From assembly GCF_020520425.1 (NCBI RefSeq), contig NC_079488.1, positions 10,827,747-10,891,746 on the forward strand: a stretch of 64,000 bases of DNA, written 5' to 3'. Both the position numbers and the translations under genes were made by a program. Every line of letters starts with the position of its first letter. Position 1 is the stretch's first letter. A model generated the notes under the pieces. The model had not been told where the DNA came from and did not search any database. It was given only the letters and a program-made list of their open reading frames with translations. Source of the DNA: Spinacia oleracea (taxonomy: Eukaryota > Streptophyta > Magnoliopsida > Caryophyllales > Amaranthaceae). This document shows, piece after piece, positions 5,495 through 50,150 of the stretch.

Positions 5495-5503
5495 TTGATT
5501 AAA
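5495..5503. repeat. MULE-1 target-site duplication, left copy (TTGATTAAA)
   Basis: Nine bases directly before the left TIR are identical to 50142-50150 directly after the right TIR. Nine bp is the typical Mutator target duplication. Confidence 0.9.
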
Positions 5504-5664
5504 GGTTTTTTTTGTGAAAAACTACCTAAAACTTTACAATTTTTGTGAAAAACTACCTAATAAGTTTATCTTTTAAAAAAAACTACCTAAACTTTCTAAA
5601 AAATTATACTAGCACTACCAATTCACAGAATCTGTCAAATTCACTGTTTAGGGGACCCAACACT
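5504..5664 (+). repeat. MULE-1 left terminal inverted repeat
   Basis: Pairs with 49984-50141. Inside the TIR the motif GTGAAAAACTACCTAA occurs twice and a shorter AAAACTACCTAA once more, giving short tandem repeats that could be transposase-binding sites (inference). The two TIRs are similar through CCAACACT and then diverge. Confidence 0.88.
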
Positions 5665-6883
5665 ATCCCGAGGCTGTCTAAACCACAAGTGGCTTGTGTC
5701 CAATATGGACACAAGTGGGGGTATATGAGTAATTTCAAAAGGGTTTATTCCATTGCCCCACACAATTGCTGAATCATATTCCGTTTATGCTATTTTCCGT
5801 TACGGGCACTGTTCCCTCTTTGCTTTTCCCACCAAAATCCCCCTTCACCTTTTCCCTCTTTTTCACTTTTTCCCTCTTTTTTACAATTCAGATATTTTGT
5901 TTCTTTTACCCTCTATTTTATAAATGTAGTACATATGTTTTGTTTAATATAATAATTAGTTTCAAAAGTCAAAATATTGTAGAAATATTAATGTAATACG
6001 AATGTGTAAACTTATTAACCCAACCCAATTATATTTAAGGGAGTTCGAACTCGAGAACGAGATTTACCCAACTAAGTAAAATATAGTTTTTAGTGAAGAC
6101 GACACTAAACGGAATGTAAATGCTAAGTTCTAATACAATAACGTTTGATACCTTTATACTAGTAAAGGGTACCATCCTAGACAGCAAGGGTCACTTTTTG
6201 AAATGTAAATGTATTATATTCTGTAAACCTTATACCAATACAAAAATCGTGTAACAACTTCAATGGTCAATTGGTCAGATCACAAAATTAAAGGACAAAT
6301 GATTGCGATTAATCGTTTGGATTGAAAAAGGAAATTCAAATGAATTATTACGAGAATAACCTATCAAGTTAATTAACAACATCACAATGTTCATAGTCGA
6401 TTCTTTATCTATTTTAATCATCAAGAACACAGTCAATTCTTAAAATACACATGAGACTTAAGGAATATACTATTGACAACCCGAATAACAACATCACGAT
6501 GTTCCATATATAAGCAGCTAATGCGATATTCAAAAGTATCAATAGTTCGTCTTATTGATTTGAGTAACTAGTTATCTACAACCATGTCTAAAACCAACAG
6601 TTATGAATTACGAATATTGAGTATTAACGTTGTTTTATTATTATATTCTTATACAACATTACCTTTTTCTAATGCGATATTCAACGTTATCAATATTTAG
6701 TTGATTGTTACTAAGATAAGCCTTTAAATAAAAGAATAAAAAATGTTAGTAGTTCAATACGAGATCATCTTATTGAAGTAGGCGCATGTTATGAATTTTA
6801 ATTATTAACGGTTTTTCATTATTATATTCTTATACCAATATTAACCTTTTCTAATGTCACACATTTAATATTACCAATGTTAA
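5665..6883. other. MULE-1 subterminal region (transposase 3' side)
   Basis: AT-rich and without a credible gene. It contains segments repeated elsewhere in MULE-1: about 6170-6310 resembles 29945-30130 (including ATGTAAATGTATTATAT), and the TTATTATATTCTTATAC stretches near 6640 and 6820 recur near 30690 and 30825. These dispersed direct repeats suggest a repetitive subterminal domain. It ends with GTTAA (6879-6883), the target duplication of element A. Confidence 0.65.
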
Positions 6884-8291
6884 TGAAGGAAATAATGCCC
6901 TTGGTCCAAGTATGCATTCTATGTTAAGTCTAATAAATGCGGTTCAGTATTAATTAACAAGTTAATAATTCAGTGAGATCAAGTGAGCTGAATGCCTGAC
7001 TAGAGGCCGCTTCAGTTCAAGTGGAATTAATTATATTAATCCACAGCTTACTCTTGACTGAACCCGTAGGGTCACACAAATAGTACGTAAACGGATCAAG
7101 TATTTAATGGCATTAAATACTCCATCTATGGATATTCGGAATCGACGGATCTTGGTTTCAGTGGGAGCTGAGATCGTCACAGGCAAGAAATGAATACCCC
7201 GGAAACGATGATATTGCCGGAAACGGAAATATGGATCGTATCGGAAATATAAATATTATCCAAGTCGTAGATGTTGCCGGAAACGGAAACATGGTACGTA
7301 TCGGAAAATATTATCGGAAATGGAAATATTGCCGGAATCGAAAATATTGCCGGAAACGGAAATATTGTCAGAATCGGAAATATTATCGGAATCGGAAAAT
7401 AATTCCGGAAACAGAAATATTAAATATTTGTTCGAAACGGAAATTAATTCCGGAATCGAAAATATTAAATATTGTTCGTATCGGAAATGAATTCCGGAAA
7501 CGGAAAATTAATCGGAAGCGTATCGTACGAATTAGCATCGGACGAGGCCTGCTAGACGAAGGCCCAGCACGAAGCCGGGCCATCGCCCAGCAAGCCAGCG
7601 CGCCACAACGCACCAGCCAAGGCTGCGCCAGGCCCACCGCAAGGCAGGCCCAGCGCGCGCCAAGGCTGCGGCAGCGTGTGGGCCTCGTGGCAATGGGCTG
7701 CGAGCTCGCGGGCTGCGCGCGCGCGCATGGCGCCCCTCGTGGGCTGCTGTGCGTGCGTGTGTGTGTTTATGTGCTATACGAATCCTAAAGCTATCAGGTT
7801 TCGACATATGATTAAATTCCTAAACCTAAAAGGATGAATTAATTAAAATAAGAATTCTATTAGGATTTTAGTTTAATTAATTCGTATCCTAATAGGATTC
7901 CAGTTCCTTTTCCATACCTCTATAAATAGGTGCCTAGGGTCATAATTTATAGACACAAAAAGGACGATTTCAAGTATTCAAAGTGATTTTTGAGAGCAAA
8001 AATTCAGTCATACAATTGCCTACACTAGCCGAAAATTCTAAGTACCTTAAGGGCGATCCTAGTTGGTCAAGCTTAAGGCGGATCCGGACGTGTTGTGGAC
8101 TATCTACGGAGGGACGACACTTGGAGTCCTAAAGACTTGTTCTTGTTCGGTTCGGGCGCAGCTAGGGAAGGCACGCAACAAAGTGTATGCATCTAAACTA
8201 TGCTAAATGATTATGTGTAAATAATATGCTTTCCTGGCTTTATGGTTTTTCCGCATGATTTATGTTTTGTCATATGTATCATAACCACACA
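6884..8291 (+). repeat. Element A 5' LTR (1408 bp)
   Basis: Starts TGAAGGAAATAATG and ends CCACACA, directly before the primer-binding site. Regions in order: an AT-rich start; an array of CGGAAA/GGAAATATT units (about 7198-7516); a GC-rich block (about 7540-7760); a TATA box in CTCTATAAATAGG near 7919; then the transcribed R/U5 part. The open frames through the repeat array are low-complexity by-products and are not called as genes. Confidence 0.88.
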
Positions 8292-8292
8292 G

Positions 8293-8306
8293 TGGTATCA
8301 CGAGCC
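8293..8306 (+). other. Element A primer-binding site, variant tRNA-Met type
   Basis: TGGTATCACGAGCC follows the LTR by one base. The first 8 bases match the usual initiator-Met primer-binding site TGGTATCAGAGCC, then one extra C intervenes. The same variant occurs in B and C. Confidence 0.8.
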
Positions 8307-9258
8307 TCTTATTATTTTCATAATCTAAATTGCATGAACATGGTTAAATATTACAAATTTGCAAGAATTAAAAGGGGTGATTAATTTTCGTAATTGTTAA
8401 TTAATTGCAAATTGCGTTTATTTAATTATACGTACGCAGTTTTTCGGCAGTTTTTTCGTTACTCATCCAAATCGAGTGATTTTTGTGTCAATTCCGCATG
8501 TAAAAGGCATTCTAAAATTTTGACAAAAAGAGTATTTTTCGGCCGAACCCAGAATTCTCAAATTCGAAGCCTAACCATGACTTTTCGGAGGTTTTAGTTT
8601 TTCGAATGCAAATTTTCGTAAATTTAAGATGTTAAATTAAATATTTGCGATTCTTGTTGATAAATCTTGAATTTTGATAGACCTACTGTATATGTTTAAC
8701 AAGTTTTAATGCCTAGCCTTGTTAATTATGCAATCTAATTTGTAATTATGATTAATTTGTTGAAAATTGGAATAATTTAGAATTAATTTGATTTTCATAA
8801 TTAGTTATAATTTAATTAGATACCTATGATTAAAAACCACCATAAAAATTGTAAATTTATGTTAAATTTTAAATTTTTATGACCTAGACTTGAATCCATT
8901 TAATCGGAAATCAATTAAATAATAAATTTTCGATTTTTCGCCCTAAAATTATGAAATTAATATTATTTATTAATTTGTCATTAATTATAATATAAATTTT
9001 AAATTTTTATGCGATTCGCTCATATAACTTGCACGCACAAAGCAATGGACGCTACGTGTTACCCTTAAGGGGTGTTGTATAGTGCGGGCATGCGACGACG
9101 AGCAAGGGAGCTCATCGCCCATGCGGTACGAATGCAGCGAGCAAGGGCATGGTGCACGAGCACAAGGCAGCAGCCCTGCCTTGTGTCGTGGGCTGTGAGC
9201 AATGGGCGCATGGGCAAGGACGAGAGCAAGGCACGAGCAGTCGCGTGTGGGCAGCAAG
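8307..9258 (+). other. Element A leader, first part
   Basis: Non-coding leader closely similar to 34811-35760 of element C. AT-rich to about 9010, then GC-rich from the GCACGCACAAAGC region. It is cut by element B after GCAAG (9254-9258) and resumes at 19742. Confidence 0.8.
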
Positions 9259-10643
9259 TGAAGGAAATAATGCCCTTGGTCCAAGTATGCATTCTATGTT
9301 AAGTCTAATAAATGCGGTTCAGTATTAATTAACAAGTTAATAATTCAGTGAGATCAAGTGAGCTGAATGCCTAGCTAGAGGCCGCTTCAGTTCAAGTGGA
9401 ATTAATGATATTAATCCACAGCTTACTCTTGACTGAACCCGTAGGGTCACACAAATAGTACGTAAACGGATCAAGTATTTAATGGCATTAAATACTCCAT
9501 CTATGAATATTCGGAACCAACGGATCTTGGTTTCAGTGGGAGCTAAGATCGTCACAGGCAAGAAATGAATACTCCGGAAACGATGATATTGCCGGAAACG
9601 GAAATATGGATCGTATCGGAAATATGAATATTATCCAAGTCGTAGATGTTGCCGGAAACGGAAACATGGTACGTATCGGAAAATATTATTGGAAATGGAA
9701 ATATTACCAGAATCGGAAATATTACCGGAAACGGAAATATTGTCAGAATCGGAAATATTGCCGGAATCGGAAAATAATTCCGGAAACGGAAATATTAAAT
9801 ATTTGTTCGAAACGGAAATTAATTCCGGAATCGGAAATGTTAAATATTGTTCGTATCGGAAATAGATTCCGGAAATGGAAATTTAATCGGAAGCGTATCG
9901 TACGAATTAGCATCGGACGAGGCTTGCCGGACGAAGGCCCAGCACGAAGCTGGGGCCATCGCCCAGCAAGCATGCGCGCCACAAAGCCCAGCCAAGGCAG
10001 CGGCCAGGCCTACCGCAAGGCAGGCCCAGCGCGCGCCAAGAGGCCGCGGCTGCGTGGGCCGTGCTACGCGGGCTGCTGCTCGCACGCGCATGGGCAGCCC
10101 TTGTGGCTGCCGTGTGTGTGTGAGTTTGTGCTCATGCGTGATTCCTGAATCTGCAAGAGTCAGTGTATGATTAAATGTCTATTCCTAATTGGATAAATTA
10201 ATTAAATAGAATTCATGTAGGATTCTAATTCCAATTAATTCGCATCCTACTAGGATTACGATTCCTTTTCCATAACTCTATAAATAAAGGCCTAGGGGTC
10301 ATAATTTATACATAAGTTTCAAAGTATTCAAAAGTGAGTTTTTTGAGAGAAAATTAAAACACATCTTGCTCATAAAAGTGCCGAATTTTCTAGTACCTTA
10401 AGGGCGATTCTAGTTGGTCAATCTTAAGGCGGATCCGGACGTGCTGTGGACTATCTACGGAGGGACGACACTTGGAGTCCTAAAAGACTTGTTCTTGTTC
10501 GGTTCGGGCGCAGCTAGGGAAGGCACGCAACAAAGAGTATGCATCTAATTATGCTATATGATTATGTGTAAATAATATGTTTCCTGGGTTAATGGTTGTT
10601 TCCGCATGATCTATGTAAATGTCATATGTATCATAACCTAACA
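9259..10643 (+). repeat. Element B 5' LTR (1385 bp)
   Basis: Begins TGAAGGAAATAATG and ends ACCTAACA. It contains the CGGAAA-rich array (about 9571-9893), a GC-rich block (about 9915-10125) and a TATA box in CTCTATAAATAAAGG near 10277, so transcription probably starts shortly downstream. Confidence 0.95.
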
Positions 10644-10644
10644 G

Positions 10645-10658
10645 TGGTATCACGAGCC
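10645..10658 (+). other. Element B primer-binding site
   Basis: TGGTATCACGAGCC, one base after the LTR; tRNA-Met type with the same extra C as in A and C. Confidence 0.85.
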
Positions 10659-13505
10659 CCTTATTATTTTCATAATCTAAATTGCATGAACATGGTTAAA
10701 TATTACAAATTTGCAAGAATTAAAAGGGGTGATTAATTTTCGTAATTGTTAATTAATTGCAAATTGCGTTTATTTAATTATACGTACGCAGTTTTTCGGC
10801 AGTTTCTTCATTACTCATCCGAATTGAGTGATTTTTGTGTCAATTCCGCATGTAAAAGGCATTCTAAAATTTTGACAAAAATAGTAATTTTCTGCCGAAC
10901 CCAGAATTCTCAAATTCGAAGCCTAACTATGACTTTTCGAAGGTTTTAGTTTTTCGAATGCAAAATCTCGTAAATTTAAGATGTTAAATTAAATATTTGC
11001 GATTCTTGTTGATAAATCTTGAATTTTTGATTGACCTACTGTATATGTTTAACAAGTTTGAATGCCTAGTCTTGTTAATTATGCAATCTAATTTGTAATT
11101 ATGATTAATTTGTTGAAAATTAGAATAATTTAGAATTAATTTGATTTTCATAATTAATTGTAATTTAATTAGAAACCTATGATTAAAAACCACCATAAAA
11201 ATTGTAAATTTACGATAAATTTTAAATTTTTATGACCTAGAATTGAATCCATATCAATCGGAAATCAATTGGATAATAAATTTTCGATTTTTTCGCCCTA
11301 AAATTATGAAATTAATATTATTTATTAATTTGTCATTAATTTTAAATATAAATTTTAAATTTTTATGCGATTCGTTCAAATAACTTGCACGCACGAAGCA
11401 ATGGACGCTTCGTGTTACCCTTAAGGGGTGTTGTATAATGCGGGCATGCGACGACGAGCAAGGGAGCTCGTCGCCCGTGCGGCACGAATGCAATGAGCAA
11501 GGGCGTAGTGCACGAGCACAAGGCAGCAGCCCTGCCTTGTGTCGTGTGCCACGAGCAATGAACGAATGGGCATGGGCGAAGGGCGAGCCAAGGCAGTCGC
11601 GTGTGGGCAGCAAGCGAGCTGCGCCACAACGCGCGCTGCCTCGCACAAGTGCGCGCAGCCTCGCGCGCAGCGAGCGCAAGCTCGCGTGCCACGAGCGCTG
11701 CGCCCAGCACTGCTCGCGCGCGCAGCGCGTGATGTCGCTCGCCCAGCGAGCGATGTCGCGCACCAGCGAGCGATGGCTCGCGCCAGCGAGCGATGGCTCG
11801 CGCGCGCAGCGCGCGATGTCGCTCGCCCAGCGAGCGATGTCGCGCCCCAGCGAGCGATGGCTCGCGCGCACAGCGAGCGAGCCAGCGCGCCCAGCGAGCG
11901 ATCTCGCGCGCGCGCACTGCGAGCGATAGCTCGCGTGCGATGGGGCGCTGTGCGGAGGCTTGAGATAGGACAGCAGCAGCTATGCGACGAGCGCATGGGC
12001 TGCGCGCACATGGCCAGCAATGGCTGTGTGCGTACGGCCCATGGGCGTGCAACGCGTAGGGTGTTTGCGTTACGATTAGATCGTTTTGAATGTTTAATTT
12101 GAAAATTTCAGTTTACGTAATTTTAATTAATTTTAAAATTAATAATTTGAATTAATTTCTTGGATTTTAATTTTGAATATTATAATTATAATAAATGGAA
12201 TTTATTCTAATTATTTTACTAAAATTAAAATCATGAATTAATTTAAATGCGACTGAAATTAAATTAAATTTTGGATTCAATTGTAAATTTATATGAGCTT
12301 TAAATTTTAATTAAATTTGTATGTTTCCGGTTAGACTAGAAATACAATTTTATGTTTAAAATTAGTAAAGCATATGAATTTATTGGTTTGAGTGGGAGCG
12401 CTTTTTAGTCATAAACTCTTGATTAGGTCTACAAATCCTTAAGGTTAAAACAACTCGATTAGAATTAATAAGGACTGAATAATTGGTAGATTATTGGTGC
12501 CCTTGATTAATTGCTGCAAATGTTTACGTGATGCATAATGTGTTTTACTAACCAGCTATGTGGGCCATTCATGATAATGAATGGGTGAATGGTATATATT
12601 GTATATGTACTGTTTTGCAGGTTATGAAGTGACTAGTATGGCCCAAATAGGATAGAAAATATGGTCTGCGTACCATTAATTTGAATGTAATTGGTCTAAA
12701 GCACCAAAGTTATTTTTCAATTCAAAATGGTCTGCGTACCATCAAATAGTTGTAATTAGTTATAGCTTATCCTATTTGAAGAAAATGGTGCCTCCCACGG
12801 AGATTTTCAAGACGGACTTTGAAGTCAAAGCTTCAAGATGAAGTCGGGCCATACTAGATCACAAATATCTTATGCATGTTTTAAGTTATTTATTGCTTTA
12901 AATATGTCTTAAATTGCATGAGATCAAAAGCTTGATTATGTTGCATGATTAAGGATTTTAGTTCACTTAAAATCTAACCAACATAGTAAGAGCCTTAAGT
13001 TCCAAACTTAAAAATTGAGTTAAAAGGTGCCATGCCAAAATATACACTTGCTTGGATATCCTTTACATCAATCTAGTAATAGTTTTCGCTCAGCGAGGTG
13101 TTACTTATTGGTCCTAAAGGGGCAAGGTACACAAATAATTGTGAGTACATGTTAGTTTTGGTGAAACTCAACGATATAAGTAAGGAGTCCTTTTATGTCG
13201 TGGCAAATTCGATAGGTTTACCTAATAAGTTCTTAGACGTACCTATCAACCAAGAATAGTTTCTAGACTATTAGCAAAAGGCTTTTGCTTACCTAAGATG
13301 TTCTAGGATTAAGTCGACAAACTGTGCTTAGTTCTTCAATGATTTTAGGATCTTGGAATCATTTTATTCACACCTGCCGGAACACATAACTTGAATAAAA
13401 TGCTTAATAAACGCTGAATTATGCATGTATGCTAGAATTTAAGTTTATTAAGAGAAACTGTGAATGGTTATTTATTTGTTTATTCTTTTCAATTGTAGTT
13501 TTAAT
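10659..13505 (+). other. Element B long 5' leader
   Basis: About 2.85 kb between primer-binding site and gag, without a credible protein gene. Three parts: AT-rich (to about 11370), GC-rich with short palindromic repeats (about 11430-12060), and AT-rich again. The motif ATGGTCTGCGTACCAT occurs at 12661-12676 and 12727-12742. A polypyrimidine stretch and TTGTAG lie just before the gag ATG, which is a plausible splice acceptor. Confidence 0.8.
11700..11950. repeat. GC-rich palindromic minisatellite in element B leader
   Basis: Repeated units such as GCGAGCGATGGCTCGC, itself a 16 bp inverted repeat around GATG, alternate with CAGCGAGCGATGTCGC and CGCGCGCAGCGCGCG. Long frames exist on both strands (Ala/Arg/Ser-rich) because stop codons are rare in this composition, so they are not called as genes. 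The matching array in element C has more units. Confidence 0.85.
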
Positions 13506-16500
13506 ATGGCAAACAACAATCAAAACATCATCATGGGTTCTGAGCTTATGGTCAAGCTGAACCTGGCAAATTTTCTTGAATGGGAAGCTAAGCTAGTTGA
13601 AATAGTCAAACTCAATGGACTTGAGTATGTACTATCCCATCCCATGCCAAGCTACTATGCCAGAGACATGACCCCTGAGAGATTATACGCCTGGGATGCG
13701 GATCTCAAAAAGGTTATGAGTCTCATGCTGAACAATATCCCTGATGATTGGGCTAAAAGGTTTGTAGCCTATGAACCTTTTACGCTCATCAAGAATCTGA
13801 GGGATATCTGTCGTGGAAGTACGGAGGACAGGGACCTGAACGTCCATGAGTTGATTGAATCAATGTCTGGTCTAAAGGTTAGTTCTCCCAACAGGTGTTA
13901 TAGGATGGAGGTCCAAGAAACACATGTTCAGCTCCTTCGCACTAAACAGAGGGTAGGCGTCCCACTGAGGTTCCATGTGGATCTTATGTGTTCATATTTT
14001 GATCGCCTAAGTCTACTAGGAACACCAATAAGCGAAAGGATGGCAGTCTCTGTCTTGCTCAATTCACTACTCAGTGGGTTTGGTCGCTTCAAGCAACAAT
14101 ACCTAAGTGAACCAAGAGAAGAAACAGTTGCAGAATTTATTCACCTTGTCAGAAAGGCTGAAATAGTACTGGACTGTGAAGCCAAAGATTTACTCAAGGC
14201 TAGAAAGAGACCATTCAAGAAAGGTGGAAAGTCCAAGGGCAATGCTAAATCAAAGCAGGACAAGTCCACATCAAGCTGTCTTTATTGTGATGGAATAGGC
14301 CATTACAAAAGAGAATGTCCAAAGCTAAAGGAAGATCAGAAGAACGGAACAGTCGTTCCATCTTCAGGTATTTTCGTTATAGACTGTATACTTGCTAATT
14401 CAACTTCTTGGGTATTAGATACAGGTTGTGGCTCACACTTATGTTCCAATCCACAGGGACTAAGAAGAAGTAGAAAGTTAAGCAAGGGAGAAGTCGACCT
14501 ACGAGTGGGAAATGGAGCACGGATTGCTGCATTAGCCGTAGGAACTTACTATTTGTCGTTGCCCTCCGGGCTAGTTTTGGAACTGGAAGAATGTTTCCAT
14601 GTTCCAAGTCTTACTAAAAACATCATTTCAGTTTCTTGCTTAGATGCTAAGGGATTTTCCTTTATAATAAAAGACAATAGTTGTTCGTTTTATTTTAAAG
14701 AGATGTTTTATGGATCTGCTAGATTAGTCAATGGACTTTATTTATTAGATCACGACAAACAAGTATATAACATAAATACCAAAAAGGCCAAAAAGGATGA
14801 TTCAGATCTCACCTATCTGTGGCATTGTCGATTAGGCCATATAAACTTGAAACGCTTAGAAAGACTTCAAAGGGAAGGAATTCTAGAACCATTTGACTTA
14901 GAGGATTATGGTAAATGCGAATCATGTTTACTTGGCAAAATGACAAAGCAACCTTTCTCTAAAGTCGGAGAAAGAGCAAATGAACTATTGGGTTTAATCC
15001 ATACAGATGTATGTGGACCAATGAGTACAAATGCTAGAGGTGGTTTCAACTACTTTATCACTTTCACTGATGACTTCAGTAGGTATGGTTATGTCTACCT
15101 AATGAAGCATAAGTCTGAATCCTTTGACAAATTCAAGGAATTTCAGAGTGAAGTAGAGAATCAATTAGGCAAGAAGATCAAGGCACTGCGGTCTGATAGA
15201 GGCGGTGAATATCTGAGCTATGAATTTGATGACCATCTGAAAGAATGTGGAATTCTATCAGAATTGACTCCTCCTGGAACACCACAATGGAACGGTGTGT
15301 CAGAACGGAGGAACAGAACCTTGCTAGACATGGTCAGGTCAATTATGGGTCAGGCCGAACTTCCATTAGAATTTTGGGGACATGCACTAAATACAGCTGC
15401 ACTCACTATAAATAGAGCTCCGTCTAAAGCTGTCGAAAAGACTCCATACGAATTATGGTTTGGAAAACCTCCAAATGTGTCTTTTCTTAAGATTTGGGGA
15501 TGTGAAGTATACGTCAAACGATTAATTTCAGACAAACTTCATCCAAAATCTGACAAATGTATCCTTGTGGGCTATCCAAAGGAAACAAAGGGGTATTACT
15601 TCTACAATACATCTGAGAACAAAGTGTTTGTTGCTCGAGATGGTGTCTTTTTGGAGAAGGATCACATTTCCAAAATGACAAGTGGGAGAAAAGTAGACCT
15701 CGAAGAAATTCGAGTCGAACAACAAACTCTAGAGAATGCTCAAGATGACATTCAGGATGAAACTCAGAGATCTTTAGAAGAATCTGGTGAGAATCATGGT
15801 CAATCTAGAAATGTTACCCCGCGTAGATCGCAAAGATATAGATCTCAACCGGAAAGGTACTTAGGTATTTTGACGAACGAGAGCTATGAAGTTCTATTAC
15901 TTGAAAGTGATGAACCTGCGACTTACAAGCAAGCTATGACGAGCCCTAGCTCCAAGCAATGGCAAGAAGCCATGCAATCTGAATTAGACTCCATGTCTGA
16001 AAACCAAGTATGGGATTTGGTCGATTTGCCAGATGGCTACCAAGCCATTGGAAGCAAATGGGTTTTCAAACTGAAAAAGGACAAGGATGGGAAACTTGAA
16101 GTTTTCAAAGCTAGATTGGTTGAAAAAGGTTACAGGCAAGTCCACGGTGTGGATTACGATGAAACCTTTTCACCAGTTGCAATGCTAAAGTCTATTCGAA
16201 TAATGTTAGCAATCGCTGCATATTACGATTACGAAATATGGCAGATGGATGTCAAAACTGCTTTCTTAAACGGCGTTTTAACAGAAACTGTGTTTATGAC
16301 ACAGCCTGAAGGTTTTGAGGATCCAAAGAATGCTAAAAAGGTATGCAAGCTAAAGAAGTCAATCTACGGATTGAAGCAGGCATCCAGGAGCTGGAATATA
16401 CGTTTTGATGAAGCAGTCAGTGACTTTGGTTTCATCAAGAACGCAGACGAATCTTGTGTATACAAGAAGGTCAGTGGGAGCAAAATTGCTTTCCTAGTAT

Positions 16501-17492: not shown

Positions 17493-18340
17493 TGTCTCTG
17501 TTTAATGTTTTAAAGTTTTAGAGTTTAAATCTTTGTAAAACATTATTGGTTAATCATTCACAATAAATGAAAGGAATTCATTTTTCCATTTAATTTGTGG
17601 TTTATTAAATGATGAGTCCCTTCAACTTGACGATATATTCAAGATAGACTGTCAGGACCAGTCCTGTGACTAAGAAATGTCTATCAAGTGAACTTGAATG
17701 TCAAAGGTTGAAAATGGTCCCTAATCGGAGTTTTCTATAAAATTGGACGCATAGAAAACGTTAGACGATTAGAATGCAAGATGACTAGTAGTTCTGTTTC
17801 TTGAACTATGTGGACATGGCAATGTCATAATCATTTGCATAGATACTTACTTTGGGAAGACTAGTATCGGACAAGACCTATGAAACTTTACTGTAAGAGA
17901 TGAAAGTCTGTCATAAGTAAATTTCATTAAATTATTAGACACTAAATCCTCAATACCTGAGTGATTTGAGATTACTTGTTTGAGAACTGGTTGCTTTGAC
18001 GTTGACCAACCGTCGCACCGTAAAAGGAGGCTATAAAGGCAACGCTCAGGTAATCACCTATCAAACGAAGTCTAATCTCAAGATCGCAAGATTGGGATTG
18101 TCCTCCCATAAATCGGGAAGAGATGCTTAAAAGTTGTACAAGGCCACTCGGAGAGCTAGAAACTGTGAAATGCATGGCCGTGCTCGGATGAATCATAGGC
18201 TATGATTATCTGTTTATTTGATCAGTTGAACTCTGAAACCGAGGAACACCTCTGGACATAATAAGGATGACAACTCTTACCTTATGTTCAAGAGCAAGCA
18301 TCGAGCGACAAAGGAATTAGGAAATGCACACTTGTCCCTA
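17493..18340 (+). other. Element B 3' non-coding region
   Basis: About 850 bp between the gag-pol stop and the polypurine tract, with no ORF of note. The matching region of element C (41738-42585) is almost identical, so it is a regular part of this family. Confidence 0.8.
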
Positions 18341-18356
18341 AGGACAAGTGGGAGAC
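18341..18356 (+). other. Element B polypurine tract
   Basis: AGGACAAGTGGGAGAC, ending directly at the TG of the 3' LTR; the expected plus-strand priming site. Confidence 0.8.
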
Positions 18357-21160: not shown

Positions 21161-21251
21161 GGGAAGTGATAAATCCAAGGAACAAAAGTATTGAGCCAAG
21201 GAAAACATCAAATTACATATTTGTCCCTTTTTCCTAACTATACACGCGCTG
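21161..21251 (+). repeat. MULE E left TIR (91 bp)
   Basis: Matches the reverse complement of 24662-24752 except about two positions, ending at CACGCGCTG on this side. Confidence 0.93.
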
Positions 21252-24752: not shown

Positions 24753-24761
24753 CAAAATATA

Positions 24762-28680: not shown

Positions 28681-28692
28681 AAGATATAGTTG

Positions 28693-34795: not shown

Positions 34796-34796
34796 G

Positions 34797-34810
34797 TGGT
34801 ATCACGAGCC
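34797..34810 (+). other. Element C primer-binding site
   Basis: TGGTATCACGAGCC one base after the LTR, the same variant tRNA-Met site as in A and B. Confidence 0.85.
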
Positions 34811-40700: not shown

Positions 40701-41737
40701 GTGTATACAAGAAGGTCAGTGGGAGCAAAATTTCTTTCCTAGTATTATATGTCGACGACATATTGCTTATCGGAAATGACATTCCTATGTTGAACTCTGT
40801 CAAGATTTGGCTTGGGAAATGTTTTTCGATGAAGGATCTAGGAGAAGCACAGTACATATTGGGCATCAAGATTTACAGAGATAGATCTAAAAAGATGATT
40901 GGACTTAGTCAAAGCACTTATATCAATAAGGTGCTTGATAGGTTCAAGATGGCAGACTCCAAGCGAGGCTACCTACCCATGTCTCATGGAATGACTCTAA
41001 GCAAGACTCAGTGCCCAAAAACACTTGATGAGCGTAGACGAATGAGTGGGATTCCATATGCATCGTTGATTGGTTCAATAATGTATGCTATGATATGTAC
41101 ACGCCCGGATGTTGCGTACGCACTCAGTGCTACGAGCAGATACCAGTCAGACCCAGGAGAGGCGCATTGGACTGCTGCCAAGAACATTCTGAAGTACCTG
41201 AAAAGGCACAAAGATGACTTCCTGGTCTATGGTGGAGATGATGAATTAATTGTTAAAGGCTATACGGACGCAAGTTTCCAAACCGACAAAGATGATTTCA
41301 GATCACAGTCTGGGTTTGTCTTCTGCCTCAACGGAGGAGCAGTAAGCTGGAAAAGTGCTAAGCAAAGCACCATTGCGGACTCTACAACTGAAGCGGAGTA
41401 CATTGCTGCACATGAAGCAGCAAAGGAAGCTATATGGCTAAGGAAGTTCATAGGAGAACTTGGTGTAGTCCCCTCCATTAAAGGACCAATAGCCCTGTAT
41501 TGTGATAATAACGGAGCTATTGCACAGGCAAAAGAGCCTAGACACCACCAGAGAGTCAAGCATGTACTTCGTAGATTTCACCTTCTACGAGAGTTCGTTG
41601 AAAGAAAAGAAGTCGAGATAAGCAAAATTGGAACTGATGACAACATATCAGATCCATTAACTAAACCTCTGCCGCAAGCGAAGCACAACTCGCACACTGC
41701 AGCTATGGGAATCAAGCATATTGGAGAATGGCTTTGA
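37751..41737 (+). CDS. Copia gag-pol polyprotein of element C (1328 aa)
   Basis: Single polyprotein for particle assembly, processing, integration and reverse transcription. Zinc knuckle at about 258-271; protease aspartate D305 in LDTG; GAG-pre-integrase HCRLGH/CESC; integrase D501 (HTDVCG), D564 (RSDRGG) and E600 (NGVSERRN); reverse transcriptase with RLVAKGY around 873 and YVDDILLIGND at 1000-1010; RNase H D1173 and TEAEY. Family members are usually about 1300 residues, so length is normal. The frame is open 31 codons upstream, but the ATG at 37751 (MANNNQN) matches element B and follows a possible splice acceptor. There is no stop or frameshift, and the residues altered in B are consensus here. 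Confidence 0.96.
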   Translation: MANNNQNIIMGSELMVKLNLTNFLEWEAKLVEIVKLNGLEYVLSHPMPSYYARDMTPERFYAWDADLKKVMSLMLNNIPDDWARRFVAYEPFTLIKNLRDICRGSTEDRDLNVHELIESMSGLKVSSPNRCYRMEVQETHVQLLRTKQRVGVPLRFHVDLMCSYFDRLSLLGTPISERMAVSVLLNSLHSGFGRFKQQYLSEPREETVAEFIHLVRKAEIVLDCEAKDLLKARKRPFKKGGKSKGNAKSKQDKSTSSCLYCDGIGHYKRECPKLKEDQKNGTVVPSSGIFVIDCILANSTSWVLDTGCGSHLCSNPQGLRRSRKLSKGEVDLRVGNGARIAALAVGTYYLSLPSGLVLELEECFHVPSLTKNIVSVSCLDAKGFSFIIKDNSCSFYFKEMFYGSARLVNGLYLLDHDKQVYNINTKKAKKDDSDLTYLWHCRLGHINLKRLERLQREGILEPFDLEDYGKCESCLLGKMTKQPFSKVGERANELLGLIHTDVCGPMSTNARGGFSYFITFTDDFSRYGYVYLMKHKSESFDKFKEFQSEVENQLGKKIKALRSDRGGEYLSYEFDDHLKECGILSELTPPGTPQWNGVSERRNRTLLDMVRSMMGQAELPLEFWGHALNTAALTINRAPSKAVEKTPYELWFGKPPNVSFLKIWGCEVYVKRLISDKLHPKSDKCILVGYPKETKGYYFYNTSENKVFVARDGVFLEKDHISKMTSGRKVDLEEIRVEQQTLENAQDDIQDETQRSLEESGENHGQSRNVTPRRSQRYRSQPERYLGILTNESYDVLLLESDEPATYKQAMTSPSSKQWQEAMQSELDSMSENQVWDLVDLPDGYQAIGSKWVFKLKKDKDGKLEVFKARLVAKGYRQVHGVDYDETFSPVAMLKSIRIMLAIAAYYDYEIWQMDVKTAFLNGVLTETVFMTQPEGFEDPKNAKKVCKLKKSIYGLKQASRSWNIRFDEAVSDFGFIKNADESCVYKKVSGSKISFLVLYVDDILLIGNDIPMLNSVKIWLGKCFSMKDLGEAQYILGIKIYRDRSKKMIGLSQSTYINKVLDRFKMADSKRGYLPMSHGMTLSKTQCPKTLDERRRMSGIPYASLIGSIMYAMICTRPDVAYALSATSRYQSDPGEAHWTAAKNILKYLKRHKDDFLVYGGDDELIVKGYTDASFQTDKDDFRSQSGFVFCLNGGAVSWKSAKQSTIADSTTEAEYIAAHEAAKEAIWLRKFIGELGVVPSIKGPIALYCDNNGAIAQAKEPRHHQRVKHVLRRFHLLREFVERKEVEISKIGTDDNISDPLTKPLPQAKHNSHTAAMGIKHIGEWL

Positions 41738-42601
41738 TGTCTCTGTTTAATGTTTTAAAGTTTTAGAGTTTAAATCTTTGTAAAACATTATTGGTTAATC
41801 ATTCACAATAAATGAAAGAAATTCATTTTTCCATTTAATTTGTGGTTTATTAAATGATGAGTCCCTTCAACTTGACGATATATTCAAGATAGACTGTCAG
41901 GACCAGTCCTGTGACTAAGAAATGTCTATCAAGTGAACTTGAATGTCAAAGGTTGAAAATGGTCCCTAATCGGAGTTTTCTATAAAATTGGACGCATAGA
42001 AAACGTTAGACGATTAGAATGCAAGATGACTAGTAGTTCTGTTTCTTGAACTATGTGGACATGGCAATGTCATAATCATTTGCATAGATACTTACTTTGG
42101 GAAGACTAGTATCGGACAAGACCTATGAAACTTTACTGTAAGAGATGAAAGTCTGTCATAAGTAAATTTCATTAAATTATTAGACACTAAATCCTCAATA
42201 CCTGAGTGATTTGAGATTACTTGTTTGAGAACTGGTTGCTTTGACGTTGACCAACCGTCGCACCGTAAAAGGAGGCTATAAAGGCAACGCTCAGGTAATC
42301 ACCTATCAAACGAAGTCTAATCTCAAGATCGCAAGATTGGGATTGTCCTCCCATAAATCGGGATGAGATGCTTAAAAGTTGTACAAGGCCACTCGGAGAG
42401 CTAGAAACTGTGAAATGCATGGCCGTGCTCGGATGAATCATAGGCTATGATTATCTGTTTATTTGATCAGTTGAACTCTGAAACCGAGGAACACCTCTGG
42501 ACATAATAAGGATGACAACTCTTACCTTATGTTCAAGAGCAAGCATCGAGCGACAAAGGAATTAGGAAATGCACACTTGTCCCTAAGGACAAGTGGGAGA
42601 C
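41738..42601 (+). other. Element C 3' non-coding region and polypurine tract
   Basis: No ORF of note. It ends with AGGACAAGTGGGAGAC (42586-42601), the polypurine tract adjoining the 3' LTR. Confidence 0.8.
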
Positions 42602-43941
42602 TGAAGGAAATAATGCCCTTGGTCCAAGTATGCATTCTATGTTAAGTCTAATAAATGCGGTTCAGTATTAATTAACAAGTTAATAATTCAGTGAGATCAA
42701 GTGAGCTGAATGCCTAGCTAGAGGCCGCTTCAGTTCAAGTGGAATTAATGATATTAATCCACAGCTTACTCTTGACTGAACCCGTAGGGTCACACAAATA
42801 GTACGTAAACGGATCAAGTATTTAATGGCATTAAATACTCCATCTATGAATATTCGGAACCGACGGATCTTGGTTTCAGTGGGAGCTAAGATCGTCACAG
42901 GCAAGAAATGAATACTCCGGAAACGATGATATTGCCGGAAACGGAAATATGGATCGTATCGGAAATATGAATATTATCCAAGTCGTAGATGTTGCCGGAA
43001 ACGGAAACATGGTACGTATCGGAAAATATTATTGGAAATGGAAATATTACCAGAATCGGAAATATTGCCGGAAACGGAAATATTGTCAGAATCGGAAATA
43101 TTGCCGGAATCGGAAAATAATTCCGGAAACGGAAATATTAAATATTTGTTCGAAACGGAAATTAATTCCGGAATCGGAAATATTAAATATTGTTCGTATC
43201 GGAAATAGATTCCGGAAATGGAAATTTAATCGGAAGCGTATCGTACGAATTAGCATCGGACGAGGCCTGCCGGACGAAGGCCCAGCACGAAGCCAGGCCG
43301 TCGCCCAGCAAGCACGCACGCCACAAGCCCAGCGCGCGCCAAGGCCACGGATGCGTGGGCCTTGCTGCGTGGGCTGCAGCTCGCACGCATGGGCAGTCCT
43401 TGTGGCTGCCGTGTGTGTGTGAGTTTGTGCTCATGCGTGATTCCTGAATCTGCAAGAGTCAGTGTATGATTAAATGTCTATTCCTAATTGGATAAATTAA
43501 TTAAATAGAATTCATGTAGGATTCTAATTCCAATTAATTCGCATCCTACTAGGATTACGATTCCTTTTCCATAACTCTATAAATAAAGGCCTAGGGGTCA
43601 TAATTTATATACAAGTTTCAAAGTATTCAAAAGTGAGTTTTTGAGAGAAAATCAAACACACATCTTGCTCAAAAGTGCCGAAATTTTCTAGTACCTTAAG
43701 GGCGATTCTAGTTGGTCAATCTTAAGGCGGATCCGGACGTGCTGTGGACTATCTACGGAGGGACGACACTTGGAGTCCTAAAAGACTTGTTCTTGTTCGG
43801 TTCGGGCGCAGCTAGGGAGGGCACGCAACAAAGAGTATGCATCTAATTATGCTATATGATTATGTGTAAATAATATGTTTCCTGGGTTAATGGTTGTTTC
43901 CGCATGATCTATGTAAATGTCATATGTATCATAACCTAACA
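42602..43941 (+). repeat. Element C 3' LTR (1340 bp)
   Basis: I found no difference from the 5' LTR by eye. Followed by target duplication ATAGT (43942-43946) and then MULE-1 sequence. Confidence 0.95.
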
Positions 43942-43946
43942 ATAGT

Positions 43947-46686
43947 CTGCAACTTGGATTTGGGGTTGTTGTTGGTAGGTACGTTCGCGCTTGTGGATGG
44001 ATGGTGGCTACTATTCTGACTGCACGGTGGAGGAGCAAATGGTGCATAGAAATTGTAAGCACCTATATCATATGTCATCTAATCAACAACAACAAAACAA
44101 TAAAACAATTAGTTTGGACACGATTCCATAAAACAGAAAATCCAAAACAAAAGAAAGGGTAACATTGTTTACCTGGTTCACCCTTGCTGCCTTCTTCTTC
44201 CTTTGTGCAACAACATAAGGATCATTGGATGCAGGCCTACCACCCTTTTGTACAGGTTCAGGTTCCTTGACAACCGGAGGCTTCTTACACTTGACTTTAT
44301 TGTGTCCAGGCTGACCACAGTTAGAACACTTGTTCTGTCTCTTCCCCCTTTTCACAAACATCTCTTCCTCCACCTCACCAGCTTCTTTTTTCCTCTTTTT
44401 AAGTTTTGGTCTTCCAGGCATTTTGCTTATGATCGGTGCCCCTGGTTGTACAAGGGAAGATTTTTCCCAGTGTTTTACACCAGGCATTGGCCTTATGTAA
44501 GGTGAATAAGCTTGTAGGTATCTTTCCGGCCTTAATCTTCTCTTAACAATACAAGCAAATGCATGTGGGCATGGTATTCCTGTTAATGCTCAATGAAAGC
44601 ATGTACAAGTCTTATCGTGTAAGTTAACCACAAACCTATCCTCTGTGGTTTCCACCTCCCACTCATCTAATCGAGATGGACATGCTATACACTTAGTGGA
44701 TGCCTCACGAACCCATTCCAACACCTTCCCAACAAATGGCATAAACCTACCTTCATAACTCTGTATTCCCTCCCATTTTTCAGTGTTCCTCTTCATTACA
44801 TACCTTCTATTCCATTCTAGGCAAGTAATAATAGGTTTGTCCCTAGCATCTTTTAACACAGCATTGAATGTCTCACAAATATTATTAAGAAGCATGTTAG
44901 ACTTGGATGTAGTATTGAAGGCATGTCTAGACCAGTGTTGTGGTGGAATTGCATTCAAATATTTGTGTGCATCCTCTGACAGAAATCATATACATTCTAG
45001 TTCAGTGTTAAATGCAAACTACAATCAGATGAAAATAATGCATTAGATCAAATTTACATACAACGTCATAATAACAATGATTCAATAATGATGAAAATTT
45101 ATATATATACCTTAGTACTAGCCCTTGCAGCTTTCCAGAAATGTTCTTTATATGTCGTGCCACTGAACTTGAGCTTGAAATTAGCCCAAATGTGCCTCAC
45201 ACAAAATCTAACTTCAGCTTTTGGTGCAACCTCATCTATGGCTTCCAACAGCCCCTTAATTGCATCGCCAATCAATCATAAGAATATGAAACTTATAAAA
45301 CAAGTGCATATAAAACTGAAAGTGTACAGAAATGAATAAGATTTAATACCTTCTGTCGGTCTGACATTAAAGTTAGGCCTTCACCATTCAAATGGGCAAC
45401 ATCTTTCATCAACTGCCCTAAGAACCATATCCAACTATCCGAATTCTCAACCTCCACTACTCCCCATGCCACTGGAAATATGTTATTATTCCCATCCTTA
45501 CTAACAACAACTAGAATCATTCCAGGGAAAGCACCCTTTAGATGACAACCATCAACCCTGATTAAAGGCCTACATCCTCTTTTAAATCCAACTTTCATGG
45601 CCTCTAAACACAGTGTACTGTTATTCTAGCTCTCCCATTGTGAAGATAGTAGTAGTCATAATGGTTTTCTATAGAGTGGTACCTAATGGCTTTCCTTAGT
45701 ACATACACATTTGGAAATTTTAAACCCCTAGTGAGCTGAATGTTTCTTTTAAAATCAGTTTCAGGGTTAAATTTGGGGATGCAATCAATCTCATCATCTG
45801 ACCCCTGTAGGCTTCTTAGTTCTTCAGAATCATAGTCAACCTCTGCCACATTACCTATATCCACACCGTCTTCTTTTCGCTGCTCACACCCAGCTCCGTT
45901 GTGCTCACCACCACTTTCTTTGTTCTCATATCTTGTTTTCTGCTGGACACCACTATTATTGCCCATACCTCCTAAACTAACCTTAATCTGCTCCAAAAAA
46001 TCAACACCCTTGGGCTCCACAAATATCTCATCCTCCTCTTGTTGTTTCTTATCTTCTTCCCCTTGCTCAAATTGAACTTCTAAATCACTGTATTCAGAAT
46101 CAGAAGACCATTCCCCAGCATCACTCCAGTCCTCACCATCAACAACACCATCAATAACTTTACCACTTTCCCCCTTACTCTTTCTCTGACCTTTAACCTT
46201 ACCCTTGTTGTGAACTTTACCCCTCCCTTTTTTCTTTAACTCCTTTAATTTTCCTAGTGAAATTGATTTTCTTCTAGGTGTTTCACATTCAATAGAGGTA
46301 AGATTAGGCTTTGATGGAGCTTTAGGGTTGGTCTTCGGTAGCACAACACGTGTAATGAGGTTATCGGTAGCCCATATTGTGACCCTATCATTGATGTCTC
46401 TACTATTAATCAACCCATCCATATCTGTTGGGCAATCAATTATTTCCCTCCCGCTCGACAAATTTAACCCAAACCTCTTATACCAAATACTAAAATCTGG
46501 AGCAATTTTTCCAGTCAACACCTTCATTGCAGTAATCACATGACCCCTCACACTATCAACATTCAATTCAGTCAACCAAACACATTTTTTCAGGTAGTTT
46601 ATCCCCCCAACATAATCAGTTCTTCCTTTGTCAAAAATAAACTTCCCACCAATCCATATGTTCATGTCTATATACCTGGGCGGCAT
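43947..46686 (-). pseudogene. MuDR-type transposase of MULE-1, broken
   Basis: Read right to left. The ATG at 46684-46686 follows a splice acceptor (TTTCAG). Then come a PB1-like N-terminal domain (MPPRYIDMNIWIGGKF...), a long acidic/Lys-rich linker and the start of the MUDR DNA-binding domain, which stops abruptly near 45600. There a deletion/frameshift removes the rest and joins the transposase core. Catalytic residues are D (VDGCHLKG, 45551-45553), D (MSDRQK, 45359-45361) and E (NNICETFN, 44872-44874). Introns are inferred at 45255-45349, about 44974-45110, and one starting at 44172. The SWIM motif CTC...CPHAF is interrupted by a TGA at about 44590, where the family often has Trp. A CCHC knuckle (CSNCGQPGHNKVKC) follows. 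The last exon is split by element C, with its end at 33432-33455. At least three lesions make the gene non-functional. Confidence 0.88.
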
Positions 46687-47096
46687 CCTGAAATTATAAA
46701 AAAAAAAAGTTTAGTAAGTGTGCATTTTATTAGTTATTACTTATAATTAGCATTATTAGTTATCACTGGTTCTTTAACAATTAAACTAAGAAAAGTGATT
46801 TAAGAATTAGAAGATAAATCATTTTTCATTTTGTTCACATAATTAGTAATTTAGTATTGAACATTCACTTTGGTTTGACTTTTATTCTAATTCAATTTAC
46901 ATGATATTGTGGAGAACTCCAAAATAAAGGAATTGAACTACTAAGCCACTTACGAAGCAAGCTGACATTCATGATTAAAAAAATCTTAAGAGCTTGTAAT
47001 TAATTCTTAAATAAGAACGTAGTACTACTTTTCCATTTCATTAACAATGCCATAAACTATTAAACAATCAATTGTAGCAACCAAAGTGATTCATCC
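46687..47096. other. MULE-1 5' intron/UTR between transposase and gypsy fragment
   Basis: AT-rich, no gene. It starts with the acceptor before the transposase ATG (minus strand) and ends at the truncated edge of the gypsy element. No 3' LTR of the gypsy element was found. Confidence 0.5.
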
Positions 47097-49075
47097 AATA
47101 GTTCATTAATCACTGGTATAGGAAACTTATTCTTCACAGTTCTATTATTTAGTTCCCTATAATCCACACACAATCTCCATGTACCATCTTTTTTACCAAC
47201 CAAAACTACTGGGGAGGCAAAGGGTGAAGCACTATTCTGTATTATACCCCTATCCAGCATTTCTTGCACCAACTGTTCAATGACATCTCTTTGCTTTAGA
47301 GGGTACCTGTAAGGTCTAATGTTGACAGGGTTAGCATCTGGAAGCAAAGGTATGGCATGGTCAAACACCCCTCTCAAAGGTGGCAATTCTGAAGGTTCTT
47401 CAAATACCATTTGGTAATTGAGTTGAAGTTCTTACAGTTCTGCAGGAACCTCCACCGAAGGAATAGGAGTTTCTGAATGCAAATCAGCTTGATTCTGAAC
47501 CTGTATCAGACATAAGTGAGCAGCTGTGGCAAACAATTTGGAAGAAGGTTCTCCCTCAACCACTTTTAATCTCTTGCTTGGTATTCCCTTCAGCATAACC
47601 TGTTTGTTCTGAAAGCAAAACTCCATCTGTAAATGCAAAAAATCCCAAGATATAGGACCAAGCAAACTCAGCCATTGTATTCCCAACACCATGTCACAAC
47701 TACCCAGGGGAATAAGCAATACATCTGCTTCAAATATAATGTCCTGTATAGTCCAAGTGAAATTCTTACATATGTGCTGACAAGCGAAATGGTTGCCATC
47801 TGCAACAGTAATGGCTTGAGGTGGTATTGTTTCTAGTGTGCAACCCAACTTCTGAGCTATGTTGAGGTCCACAAAGTTGTGTGTACTTCCAGAATCTATC
47901 AATATCTGCACAGGTTTGCCTTTCACCATTCCTCTCACCCTCATTGTGCTAAAACCCTGACTGCCAGATAAAGCACTCATAGAAATCTGTGGTTCACTCA
48001 CCTCTTTATCCCCTAGATCCAACTCATCACTATCACTGAGTTCTTCAATAATATCACCTGGAATCTCTACAGTAAATAACTATGGTTCCCTAAATTGGCA
48101 CTTGTGATTCCTGTCATATGGAGCATCACAGTAGTAACACAATCCCTTGGCAATCTTCTCTTGCCTGACATCAGCTGGTATGTATTTGAAGTTTTTTGTT
48201 CTTTGTTGTGGGTATTTGGTCAAGGATAAGGTGGTATTTGGTTTAATTTGTGGTGTAGGTAAGAGTGGTGGTTTGCTGTTGGTTAGGAGTGGTACAGACT
48301 GCAATGGCTTTGGGCTATAAAATGGTTGTTTGTAGGTTGTTTTTGTAGCTACCAGATTCTCCTCCTGTAACCTAGCCAAATCAATGGCTTCAGAAATGGA
48401 ATCAGGTTTAAAGGCTTTAACAAAAGGTTTAACAGCTGCTTTAAGTCCACCAACAAAGCTTTCCAACAAGTAAGTTTCAGGCAAGATATGGTTATTCATC
48501 ATCATGATTGACCTCAAATTCTCAAATTCATCCACATAATCCTCTAATAAACCAGTTTGCTGCAATTTATTAAAATTTTCAACCACATTTTGTGCTGAAC
48601 TATCCCTGAATCTAGCATACAAATCGGCCACAAAATCATTCCAATCAACTATTATGCTTTTTCTAACTGACAAATAATTCATCACCCAACTCTCAGCCTT
48701 ATCTGTCATGTTGAGAGAGGCAAGATCCACCTTCTGCTCCTCAGGGATTTTACATAATGAGAAGTACTTGCAGCATTTTTTCACCCAAATTCTAGGGTTG
48801 GTGCCATCAAATTTAGGAAAAGTAAGCTTGGGATTCATACCTAGTGTTCTGGTAGGTTGAGATTTTGGAGTTGAGAATGAAGTATCTTCATTGCTAGTTG
48901 CTGAATCCTTAAGAGTCTGCATAAACTTCATCATCTCTTCGAACTTTTGCTCCATTTTTTTGTTCTGATCTTCGAGTTTGGAGTTCTGCTCCTCCAACCT
49001 CTTTTCTAAATTTTTGAATTGATCCTCCATAGCTGCCTTTCTTCTGGTAGCAGCAGGAGCCAGTTCTAGCTTCAA
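47060..49075 (-). pseudogene. Gypsy gag-protease-RT remnant
   Basis: One reading frame broken by two stop codons. Gag (49075-48080) has an N-terminal coiled-coil (EEQNSKLEDQNKKMEQKF) and a retrotransposon gag core (FPKFDGTNPRIWVKKC...). Its C-terminus has CYYCDAPYDRNHKCQF, a zinc knuckle. A TAG at 48080-48082 precedes the aspartic protease (48022-47432) with active site ILIDSGSTHNFV and IPLGSCDMVLGIQWL. A TAA at 47432-47434 precedes reverse-transcriptase blocks (RGIIQNSASPFASPVVLV, GTWRLCVDYRELN). The frame then leaves the family consensus after INELLDE, near 47097, and the remaining codons to 47060 are not gypsy-like. Confidence 0.88.
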
Positions 49076-49101
49076 TCAACTGCAGGGAGAGAGTTTTTAG
49101 C

Positions 49102-49122
49102 AGCGATTGGCTCTGATACCAA
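49102..49122 (-). other. Gypsy primer-binding site, tRNA-Met type
   Basis: On the minus strand TTGGTATCAGAGCCAATCG directly follows the LTR end. This is the standard initiator-Met primer-binding site, in contrast to the copia family here with its extra C. Confidence 0.8.
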
Positions 49123-49233
49123 TGATAAGGGATCTCGAATAGCTCTCCTTTAATGGAAACCAACAACAGAATCTAAGAGAGGAATGTGACCCAGAGATAA
49201 GAAGAAGAAGAAGAAGAAGAGAATTCAGATAAA

Positions 49234-49298
<65 letters not shown>

Positions 49299-49384
49299 GG
49301 AAGATTTGTATTGTATTATGATGCTAATACAATGTACCCGAATTAGTTTATAAGCTGCCAAAACAACTAACTAACTCTCTAACA
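49123..49384 (-). repeat. Gypsy 5' LTR (262 bp)
   Basis: On the minus strand starts TGTTAGAGAGTTAGTTAG, contains TTATAAACTAATTCGGG as a TATA region, then the GA/CT microsatellite, and ends CCTTATCA before the primer-binding site. A short LTR, fitting small gypsy families. Confidence 0.75.
49236..49295. repeat. (GA)n microsatellite in gypsy LTR
   Basis: About 60 bp of almost perfect GA dinucleotides, preceded by a GAA-rich stretch (49200-49222). It lies just downstream of the LTR TATA region, probably in the transcribed leader. Confidence 0.9.
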
Positions 49385-49983
49385 AATCCCCTATTTTTAA
49401 GCAACTTATTCTTCAAGCTAGCTAACAACTTTAACTAACTTTCCCGCCAAAACTTCCAATGATCACATTTGATCATTTGGATTTAAAACTGAAAATTAAA
49501 GAGAATAAAGACTTCTCCTATAACACAAAGCATATTTTTTAATTAGGGTTTATCGATTAAAAAATTGGGGCTTTTCACATTGATCCAATTTTACTTTGTC
49601 ACAAACTGGGTACACAAATTTCAAAGCAATTACAAGCTAAAATACAGTATTTACCTTACGTGAGGACCATGACCTTTACTTTCTTGTTTAATTGCATAAA
49701 GCAGATTCCCTTTGTCATCCATAACTCCTTTGTGTCCTTTTCTTGACCCAACCAACTGTACTTGACGCAGAATTGATTGAAGGAGTGAACGATACTAGTG
49801 TGCGTAACAGAGAAGGTTGGAGACAAATTCTTGTTGGTGGTCCAGGGGTTCTTTAGAAAAAGAATGGAGGGGCTAAAATTGTGTAATGAATGAACATAGG
49901 AGAGAGAGAAGATGGTGGTTGTGAATTGAATTATTTAGGGATATTTAGGTCATCCAGTGTTCTTTTTTGGGAGGGAAACTGAG
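49385..49983 (-). other. MULE-1 5' region with possible first exon
   Basis: Minus-strand sequence between the right TIR and the gypsy LTR. An ATG at about 49721 opens a short frame (MDDKGNLLYAIKQESKGHG) that ends at a donor-like GTAAGG near 49660, so it could be a 5' exon of the MULE-1 transposase or a captured fragment. Not recognised as a known protein. Confidence 0.35.
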
Positions 49984-50141
49984 AGTGTTGGGCCCCTTAA
50001 ACGGAGCATTGACGGATTCCGTGAATTGGTAGTGTTGGTATACGTTTTTAAAAAGTTTAGGTAGTTTTTTTTTAAAATAAACTTATTAGGTAGTTTTTCA
50101 CAAAAATTGTAAAACTTTAGGTAGTTTTTCACAAAAACCCC
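49984..50141 (-). repeat. MULE-1 right terminal inverted repeat
   Basis: Reverse complement begins GGGGTTTTTGTGAAAAACTA and parallels 5504-5664. Followed by target duplication TTGATTAAA (50142-50150). Confidence 0.88.
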
Positions 50142-50150
50142 TTGATTAAA
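50142..50150. repeat. MULE-1 target-site duplication, right copy (TTGATTAAA)
   Basis: Identical to 5495-5503. The Helitron 5' end follows immediately. Confidence 0.9.

Follow-up and report, generated by a model that had tools for sequence, protein, structure and literature searches.

Nested insertions within one Mutator-like element of spinach: a 44.6 kb stack in four tiers

We analysed a stretch of 64,000 nucleotides of the Spinacia oleracea genome (contig NC_079488.1, positions 10,827,747 to 10,891,746 of the forward strand; hereafter the window, to which all positions refer unless a locus is named), in which one MuDR-type Mutator element, termed MULE-1 (for Mutator-like element, MULE), almost certainly spans positions 5504-50141, enlarged by nested insertions that include a further Mutator-like element, X. 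Six later insertions stretch MULE-1 to 44.6 kb, in four tiers counting the host: the first level within MULE-1 is occupied by a Ty1/copia retrotransposon (copia B), a Ty3/gypsy fragment and X; a second copia (the outer copia) lies one level deeper, inside X; and the third level is formed by copia A and another Mutator-like element, MULE-2, both inside the outer copia. A preliminary description of the locus had recognised a single Mutator element interrupted by nested insertions, a view that holds for span and nesting, whereas the anatomy it proposed calls for revision, X having been missed. It had counted three levels and placed three retroelements at the first of them, where only copia B and the gypsy fragment are found, as well as two retroelements inside the element it labelled copia A, the large copia that is here the outer copia; these two are one copia and one DNA transposon.

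Results

Termini, target duplication and transposase of MULE-1

The left terminal inverted repeat (TIR) of MULE-1, taken with a few subterminal bases (5504-5669, plus strand), and the reverse complement of the right one (49982-50141, minus strand) differ at 18 of 160 aligned columns, with 6 further gap columns, and BLAST gives 88.7% identity over 159 bp. Their local alignment score of 223 compares with a best value of 51 among somewhat fewer than 1000 random pairs of window segments, and with 34 among 5000 random segments aligned to the left TIR, segments starting at 49700-50300 being excluded. The 9-bp target site duplication (TSD) TTGATTAAA stands, without strand, at 5495-5503 and in an exact match at 50142-50150; for two window positions drawn at random, the rate of a matching 9-bp flank is 1.5e-5. 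A third occurrence at 26111, within the outer copia, is unsurprising, about one chance occurrence per strand being estimated for 64 kb of this base composition. The left flank is a dispersed repeat that reads TTGATGAAA at the target place in all three copies fetched; both window copies of TTGATTAAA carry a T absent from these repeats, as expected if a single target was duplicated.

A broken MuDR-type transposase gene lies between the termini (44083-46710, minus strand), with Pfam matches to DBD_Tnp_Mut (E=9.5e-8) and the MULE domain (E=5.7e-8), a zinc-knuckle match under the curated cut-off, and two further pieces with no or sub-threshold matches. The termini, flanking repeats and transposase reported in the preliminary description were thus all recovered. 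TSDs in the Mutator superfamily range from 8 to 11 bp, and MULE-1 combines a 9-bp TSD with TIRs of about 160 bp (89% identical) and a MuDR/MULE transposase. Relative to a related gene at C2:88.29 Mb (locus L026/L027), about 155 residues are absent between the DNA-binding and catalytic parts, and the reading frame is broken further along as well. Owing to this internal deletion and nonsense change MULE-1 is unable to make its own transposase, and movement of the whole 44.6 kb in trans seems unlikely. The right terminus of the C2 locus (about 11194-11361 of L026/L027) is related to that of MULE-1 (67% over 169 bp, E=2.5e-9), and its position beside a related MuDR gene ties this type of transposase to this type of terminus. 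An inverted repeat at 4880-5096 and 13912-14121 of the same locus, initially taken as its TIR, was rejected because it resembles LTR (long terminal repeat) ends.

Sequence native to MULE-1 amounts to 5001 bp, so that the uninterrupted element would have been nearer 5 kb than the roughly 9 kb previously assumed. Apart from the TIRs, it comprises the stretches 32372-33455 (plus strand), 43942-47086 (minus strand, with the transposase gene) and the subterminal 49531-49981 (plus strand), the last being similar to sequence in loci L012 (window 49673-50126) and L011 (49769-50142). Long MULE-1 termini are found at few other sites: 5495-5700 returned 25 matches, the eight best of which were extracted as loci (two belong to the window itself), and the remaining 17 span 31 to 53 bases each, some of them matching the end of X. 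Locus L011 (C5, 32.447 Mb) is a compact relative with both termini and a target duplication matching at 8 of 9 positions, its own termini being only 79% identical to each other. In the joined locus L009/L010 (C5, 38.72 Mb), a terminus of the MULE-1 family is split by a 17.8 kb insertion (about 1118-18936) that has a 15-bp duplication, a short A run at one end and a copia inside, and that is perhaps a long interspersed nuclear element (LINE).

Element X, a tier of its own

Element X (5670-32371, plus strand) begins just inside the left terminus of MULE-1 and houses the outer copia; its family has termini of the type GAGG.... Its recognition relies on family copies elsewhere and on MULE-1 relatives that lack it. 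Window 32373-33080 is carried by L009/L010, and pieces of 32377-33010 by L011, in both cases about 70 bases inside the terminus, and when 5600-5669 and 32372-32441 are joined, the resulting sequence aligns through the joint to these loci with 121/133 and 118/140 identities, respectively. Both relatives retain about 70 bases at the joint that are missing from the window, where they appear as an extra gap. A search with 5670-6883 returned 134 matching pieces, including the window's own, 40 of 150 candidates having been scored. Since a dispersed family is found there and relatives of MULE-1 are free of it, 5670-6883 and 29775-32371 do not belong to MULE-1.

Ten copies of X were fetched, chosen largely for having a left end; the start lies no more than two bases from 5670 in nine of them, and in L043 it is set a few bases inward. 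Six of the ten (L040, L041, L042, L044, L045 and L046) reach window 32371, and in L040, L044, L045 and L046 the left end recurs in inverted orientation about 360-400 bases beyond it. The flanks of L041, L042 and L046 show perfect 10-bp TSDs; the other seven copies have no recognised right end or an unclear TSD. Copies elsewhere thus show the TIRs and 8-11 bp TSDs of the Mutator superfamily, while the window retains the left terminus only. On the strength of these copies, X is most plausibly a MULE from a different family that in the window has probably lost its right end, some 400 bp. The right joint passes through a short shared AATAA-like stretch, and the loss may have been an ordinary illegitimate deletion.

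Copia elements

The outer copia (6884-29769, plus strand; 22.9 kb) houses copia A and MULE-2, and is flanked by GTTAA at 6879-6883 and 29770-29774. Three X copies are uninterrupted at this site, L039, L043 and L045 running straight through a single GTTAA with scores of 188, 184 and 184 of 200; among the others, L046 is continuous with a gap (136), five are partial (90-102), and L047 is not meaningful (33). Its polyprotein region (pol) is decayed: no frame of at least 120 codons exists between 24762 and 28678, and four pieces are 29-43% identical to copia A. Its LTR, leader and 3' tail are shared with copia A and copia B, the tail of this family being seen in L009/L010, as the window copy has lost most of it. 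The first part of the 3' LTR (28693-29769) is gone, and an inverted 190-bp LTR piece precedes the collinear part. By the features of Ty1/copia elements, LTRs and TSD are present, with pol decayed and the 3' LTR rearranged. We had considered a chimeric copia, and dropped this idea because L009/L010 shares the pol (24762-28692) at 94% and is likewise frameless, with no frame of at least 150 codons in the shared region, which indicates a family with decayed pol. Such a family was likely mobilised in trans by other elements, copia A or B being candidates.

Copia A (9259-19741, plus strand; TSD GCAAG; LTRs 9259-10643 and 18357-19741) has an open reading frame (ORF) at 13464-17492 in which rve precedes RVT_2, i.e. 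integrase before reverse transcriptase (RT). Its insertion is absent from the corresponding sites of copia B (84/98 identical) and L009/L010 (85/98). Copia B (33456-43941, plus strand; TSD ATAGT, the second copy at 43942-43946 falling within the adjoining native stretch) has identical LTRs and an ORF at 37655-41737. The domain order was tested on copia A and extends to copia B through its protein, 98.6% identical to that of copia A. Both elements thus display LTRs of the TG..CA type, 5-bp TSDs and the Ty1/copia domain order.

MULE-2

MULE-2 (21161-24752, plus strand; 3592 bp) has TIRs of about 91 bp, identical at 89 of 91 positions, and the TSD CAAAATATA. A frame of 672 codons from stop to stop (21741-23759), read in the window copy, encodes a MULE transposase domain (1e-27), together with a ZSWIM RNaseH-like match and weaker AFT matches; with its 9-bp TSD and TIRs, MULE-2 thus shows the hallmarks of the superfamily. 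Three full-ended copies were identified, in the window, at C4:13.57 Mb (98%) and at C6:57.48 Mb (100% rounded, with 307 query bases missing), all three with perfect 9-bp TSDs. The insertion is absent from the related copia leaders of copia A, copia B (with one gap) and L009/L010, at 100 of 100 aligned bases. Judged from these copies, MULE-2 represents a young, recently active, low-copy family. Its closest known counterparts are probably the FAR1/Jittery-type MULEs, with which it would share the MULE domain, the ZSWIM RNaseH-like and AFT matches, TIRs of about 91 bp and 9-bp TSDs.

The gypsy fragment

The gypsy fragment (47087-49525, minus strand) has a single LTR (about 49123-49525), gag and protease with Pfam matches, and the start of RT, cut short and without such a match. 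Lacking the complete RT and second LTR of a full Ty3/gypsy element, it is a truncated fragment of one, flanked by a perfect CAAAG (47082-47086 and 49526-49530). Locus L013 is a near-empty paralogue, running through the site with a score of 115, whereas 3000 random stand-ins for the right flank scored 107 at best; an earlier, length-based control was uninformative, since 195 of 500 random substitutes reached its threshold. Matches to the three closest copies elsewhere extend over the whole fragment, LTR end to RT cut. Two of these copies were checked at both ends: at the LTR end both diverge from the window at the same place, and beyond the cut they have further sequence in common that is absent from the window, so that the window fragment has lost, or never had, the remainder. 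Read on its own strand, the cut end runs into CA right before CTTTG, the duplication, and a deletion stopping only a few bases before the 3' LTR ends would most simply account for the TSD. Direct integration of a truncated complementary DNA, its internal end taking the place of the second LTR, is an improbable origin. We also set aside capture of the piece by MULE-1, as it has a 5-bp duplication of its own and a gypsy-free site exists.

Ages and order of insertion

Boundaries, TSDs and nesting were observed directly, and nesting gives the order of insertion along each branch; in agreement, the LTRs of the outer copia have diverged further than those of the copia A that it contains. Kimura distances between LTRs are 0.0116 for the outer copia (867 aligned bases, collinear part only), 0.0014 for copia A (2/1385) and 0 for copia B (0/1340); the inverted stretch of the outer copia 3' LTR (0.055 over 190 bp) was not used, being rearranged. 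If the rate of 1.3e-8 per site per year that PMC6337768 applied to spinach is taken, the outer copia would be about 0.45 million years (My) old and copia A about 0.06 My, copia B being too recent to measure. We infer absolute ages and the order between branches, in contrast to the order within them. The TIRs yield distances of 0.12 for MULE-1 (4.7 My) and 0.022 (standard error 0.016) for MULE-2. One TIR mismatch of MULE-2 occurs in both the window copy and the C6 copy, and therefore predates at least one of these insertions; this, and the 79% identity between the termini of L011, makes TIR divergence no safe clock. The stack, earlier called datable, is so through its LTR elements and not through the TIRs of its MULEs.

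Flanks of the stack

A repeat end beginning TCTATTC starts at 50151, directly after the right TSD, and is preceded by A in all three loci fetched; it resembles a Helitron-like 5' end. Further to the right, a piece of PIF/Harbinger-type transposase was identified at 59143-59541 (DDE_Tnp_4, E=8.7e-8), the frame 57228-57935 close to it having no Pfam match, and a cupin gene, probably germin-like, at 62011-62736 (Cupin_1, E=4.2e-28).

Discussion

The outer boundaries could in principle have been supplied by two adjacent elements of one family, the 44.6 kb between them being unrelated debris. The divergence of about 11% between the TIRs and the preponderance of other elements in the interval are compatible with such an arrangement, as is the outcome of the search for a clean empty site in the same genome, in which the joined flanks (193 bases) returned no full match across the joint. 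In that search, 12 of 17 left-flank repeats outside the window stop at query 124, one base beyond the target, four stop earlier, and one (C4:164182237) continues 14 bases beyond it; right-flank repeats start mostly at query 120-124, three of them earlier, at 109 or 114. Among six loci fetched from this set, the three left-flank copies diverge from one another directly after the target, and L054 continues briefly like the right flank. Nevertheless, two independent elements would hardly share identical 9-bp flanks, given the chance rate above, nor a T in both that the left-flank repeats lack. The sequence inside each terminus, taken beyond X on the left, moreover matches one compact relative, L011, and the C2 locus pairs the same type of terminus with the same type of transposase, so that we regard two adjacent elements as very improbable. 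An element of about 9 kb, to which 5504-6883 and 29775-33455 would be entirely native and in which the large copia would sit at the first level, deserves as little credence. It is favoured by the continuity of these stretches around the outer copia, with its TSD intact, and by the single X terminus in the window; against it, 5670-6883 belongs to a separate dispersed family with ends of its own, three copies of which have 10-bp TSDs away from MULE-1 termini, and two relatives of MULE-1 are without X.

Several observations weigh against the reconstruction of a single enlarged MULE-1, beyond the empty-site search. An insert-free site was found neither for MULE-1 nor for copia B, and no near-identical full-length MULE-1 copy was detected among the 40 of 144 transposase candidates scored, the best-scoring of which is 69% identical (shorter pieces reach up to 81%). 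No left terminus was recognised for the C2 relative within the 16 kb fetched, and in the window X retains neither a right terminus nor a TSD. The gypsy fragment, having a single LTR, requires a special history to explain its matching TSD, and the TIR distance of MULE-2 nominally exceeds the LTR distance of its host, within error. The reconstruction as a whole is supported by perfect TSDs at six of the seven elements, the exception being X with its right end lost, as well as by insert-free paralogous sites for five of the six inner insertions; random pairs of positions share a 5-bp flank at a rate of 0.0016.

According to this reconstruction of one enlarged element, MULE-1 inserted into a repeat, duplicating 9 bp, and X, from a second MULE family, later entered just inside its left terminus; a deletion presumably removed the right end of X, taking about 70 bp of MULE-1 with it. 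X became the target of a copia whose polyprotein is decayed and which was probably mobilised in trans, and that copia in turn received copia A and the young MULE-2, from a third family. Copia B and the gypsy element, now presumably truncated by a deletion, entered MULE-1 separately, and the transposase of MULE-1 also suffered the internal deletion and the nonsense change.

Nested insertions in coding MULEs are common: according to PMC3903597, they affect 191 of 530 such elements (36%) in maize, and in rice 195 of 476 (41%), a share that falls to about 24% once 107 copies of one event are subtracted, and about 65-69% of the dated inserts are under 1 My. Those MULEs resemble MULE-1 in bearing transposase genes interrupted by LTR retrotransposons and DNA elements, whereas the spinach nest has four tiers and two of its inserts are MULEs of other families. 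Nesting of LTR elements, also within one family, is described for 12 plant genomes in PMC6911290. Compared with the nests presented there, the spinach locus is alike in having a younger copia within an older one with related LTRs, and differs in that the outer polyprotein is decayed and distantly related and the stack lies in DNA transposons. We found no paper joining Mutator-like elements, nested insertion, target site duplication and spinach, which does not imply absence from print.

Conclusions

The locus is a well-resolved, well-preserved further case of a history common in plant genomes, and leaves the general picture of their evolution unchanged. It provides a cross-checked series of insertions at one place, involving three MULE families, three copia insertions and one gypsy, in which a transposon can be seen to span nine times its own remaining length. 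Moreover, it illustrates that a whole tier, here X, can escape notice when a nest is read with no family copies at hand, and that TIR divergence in MULEs can mislead as a clock.

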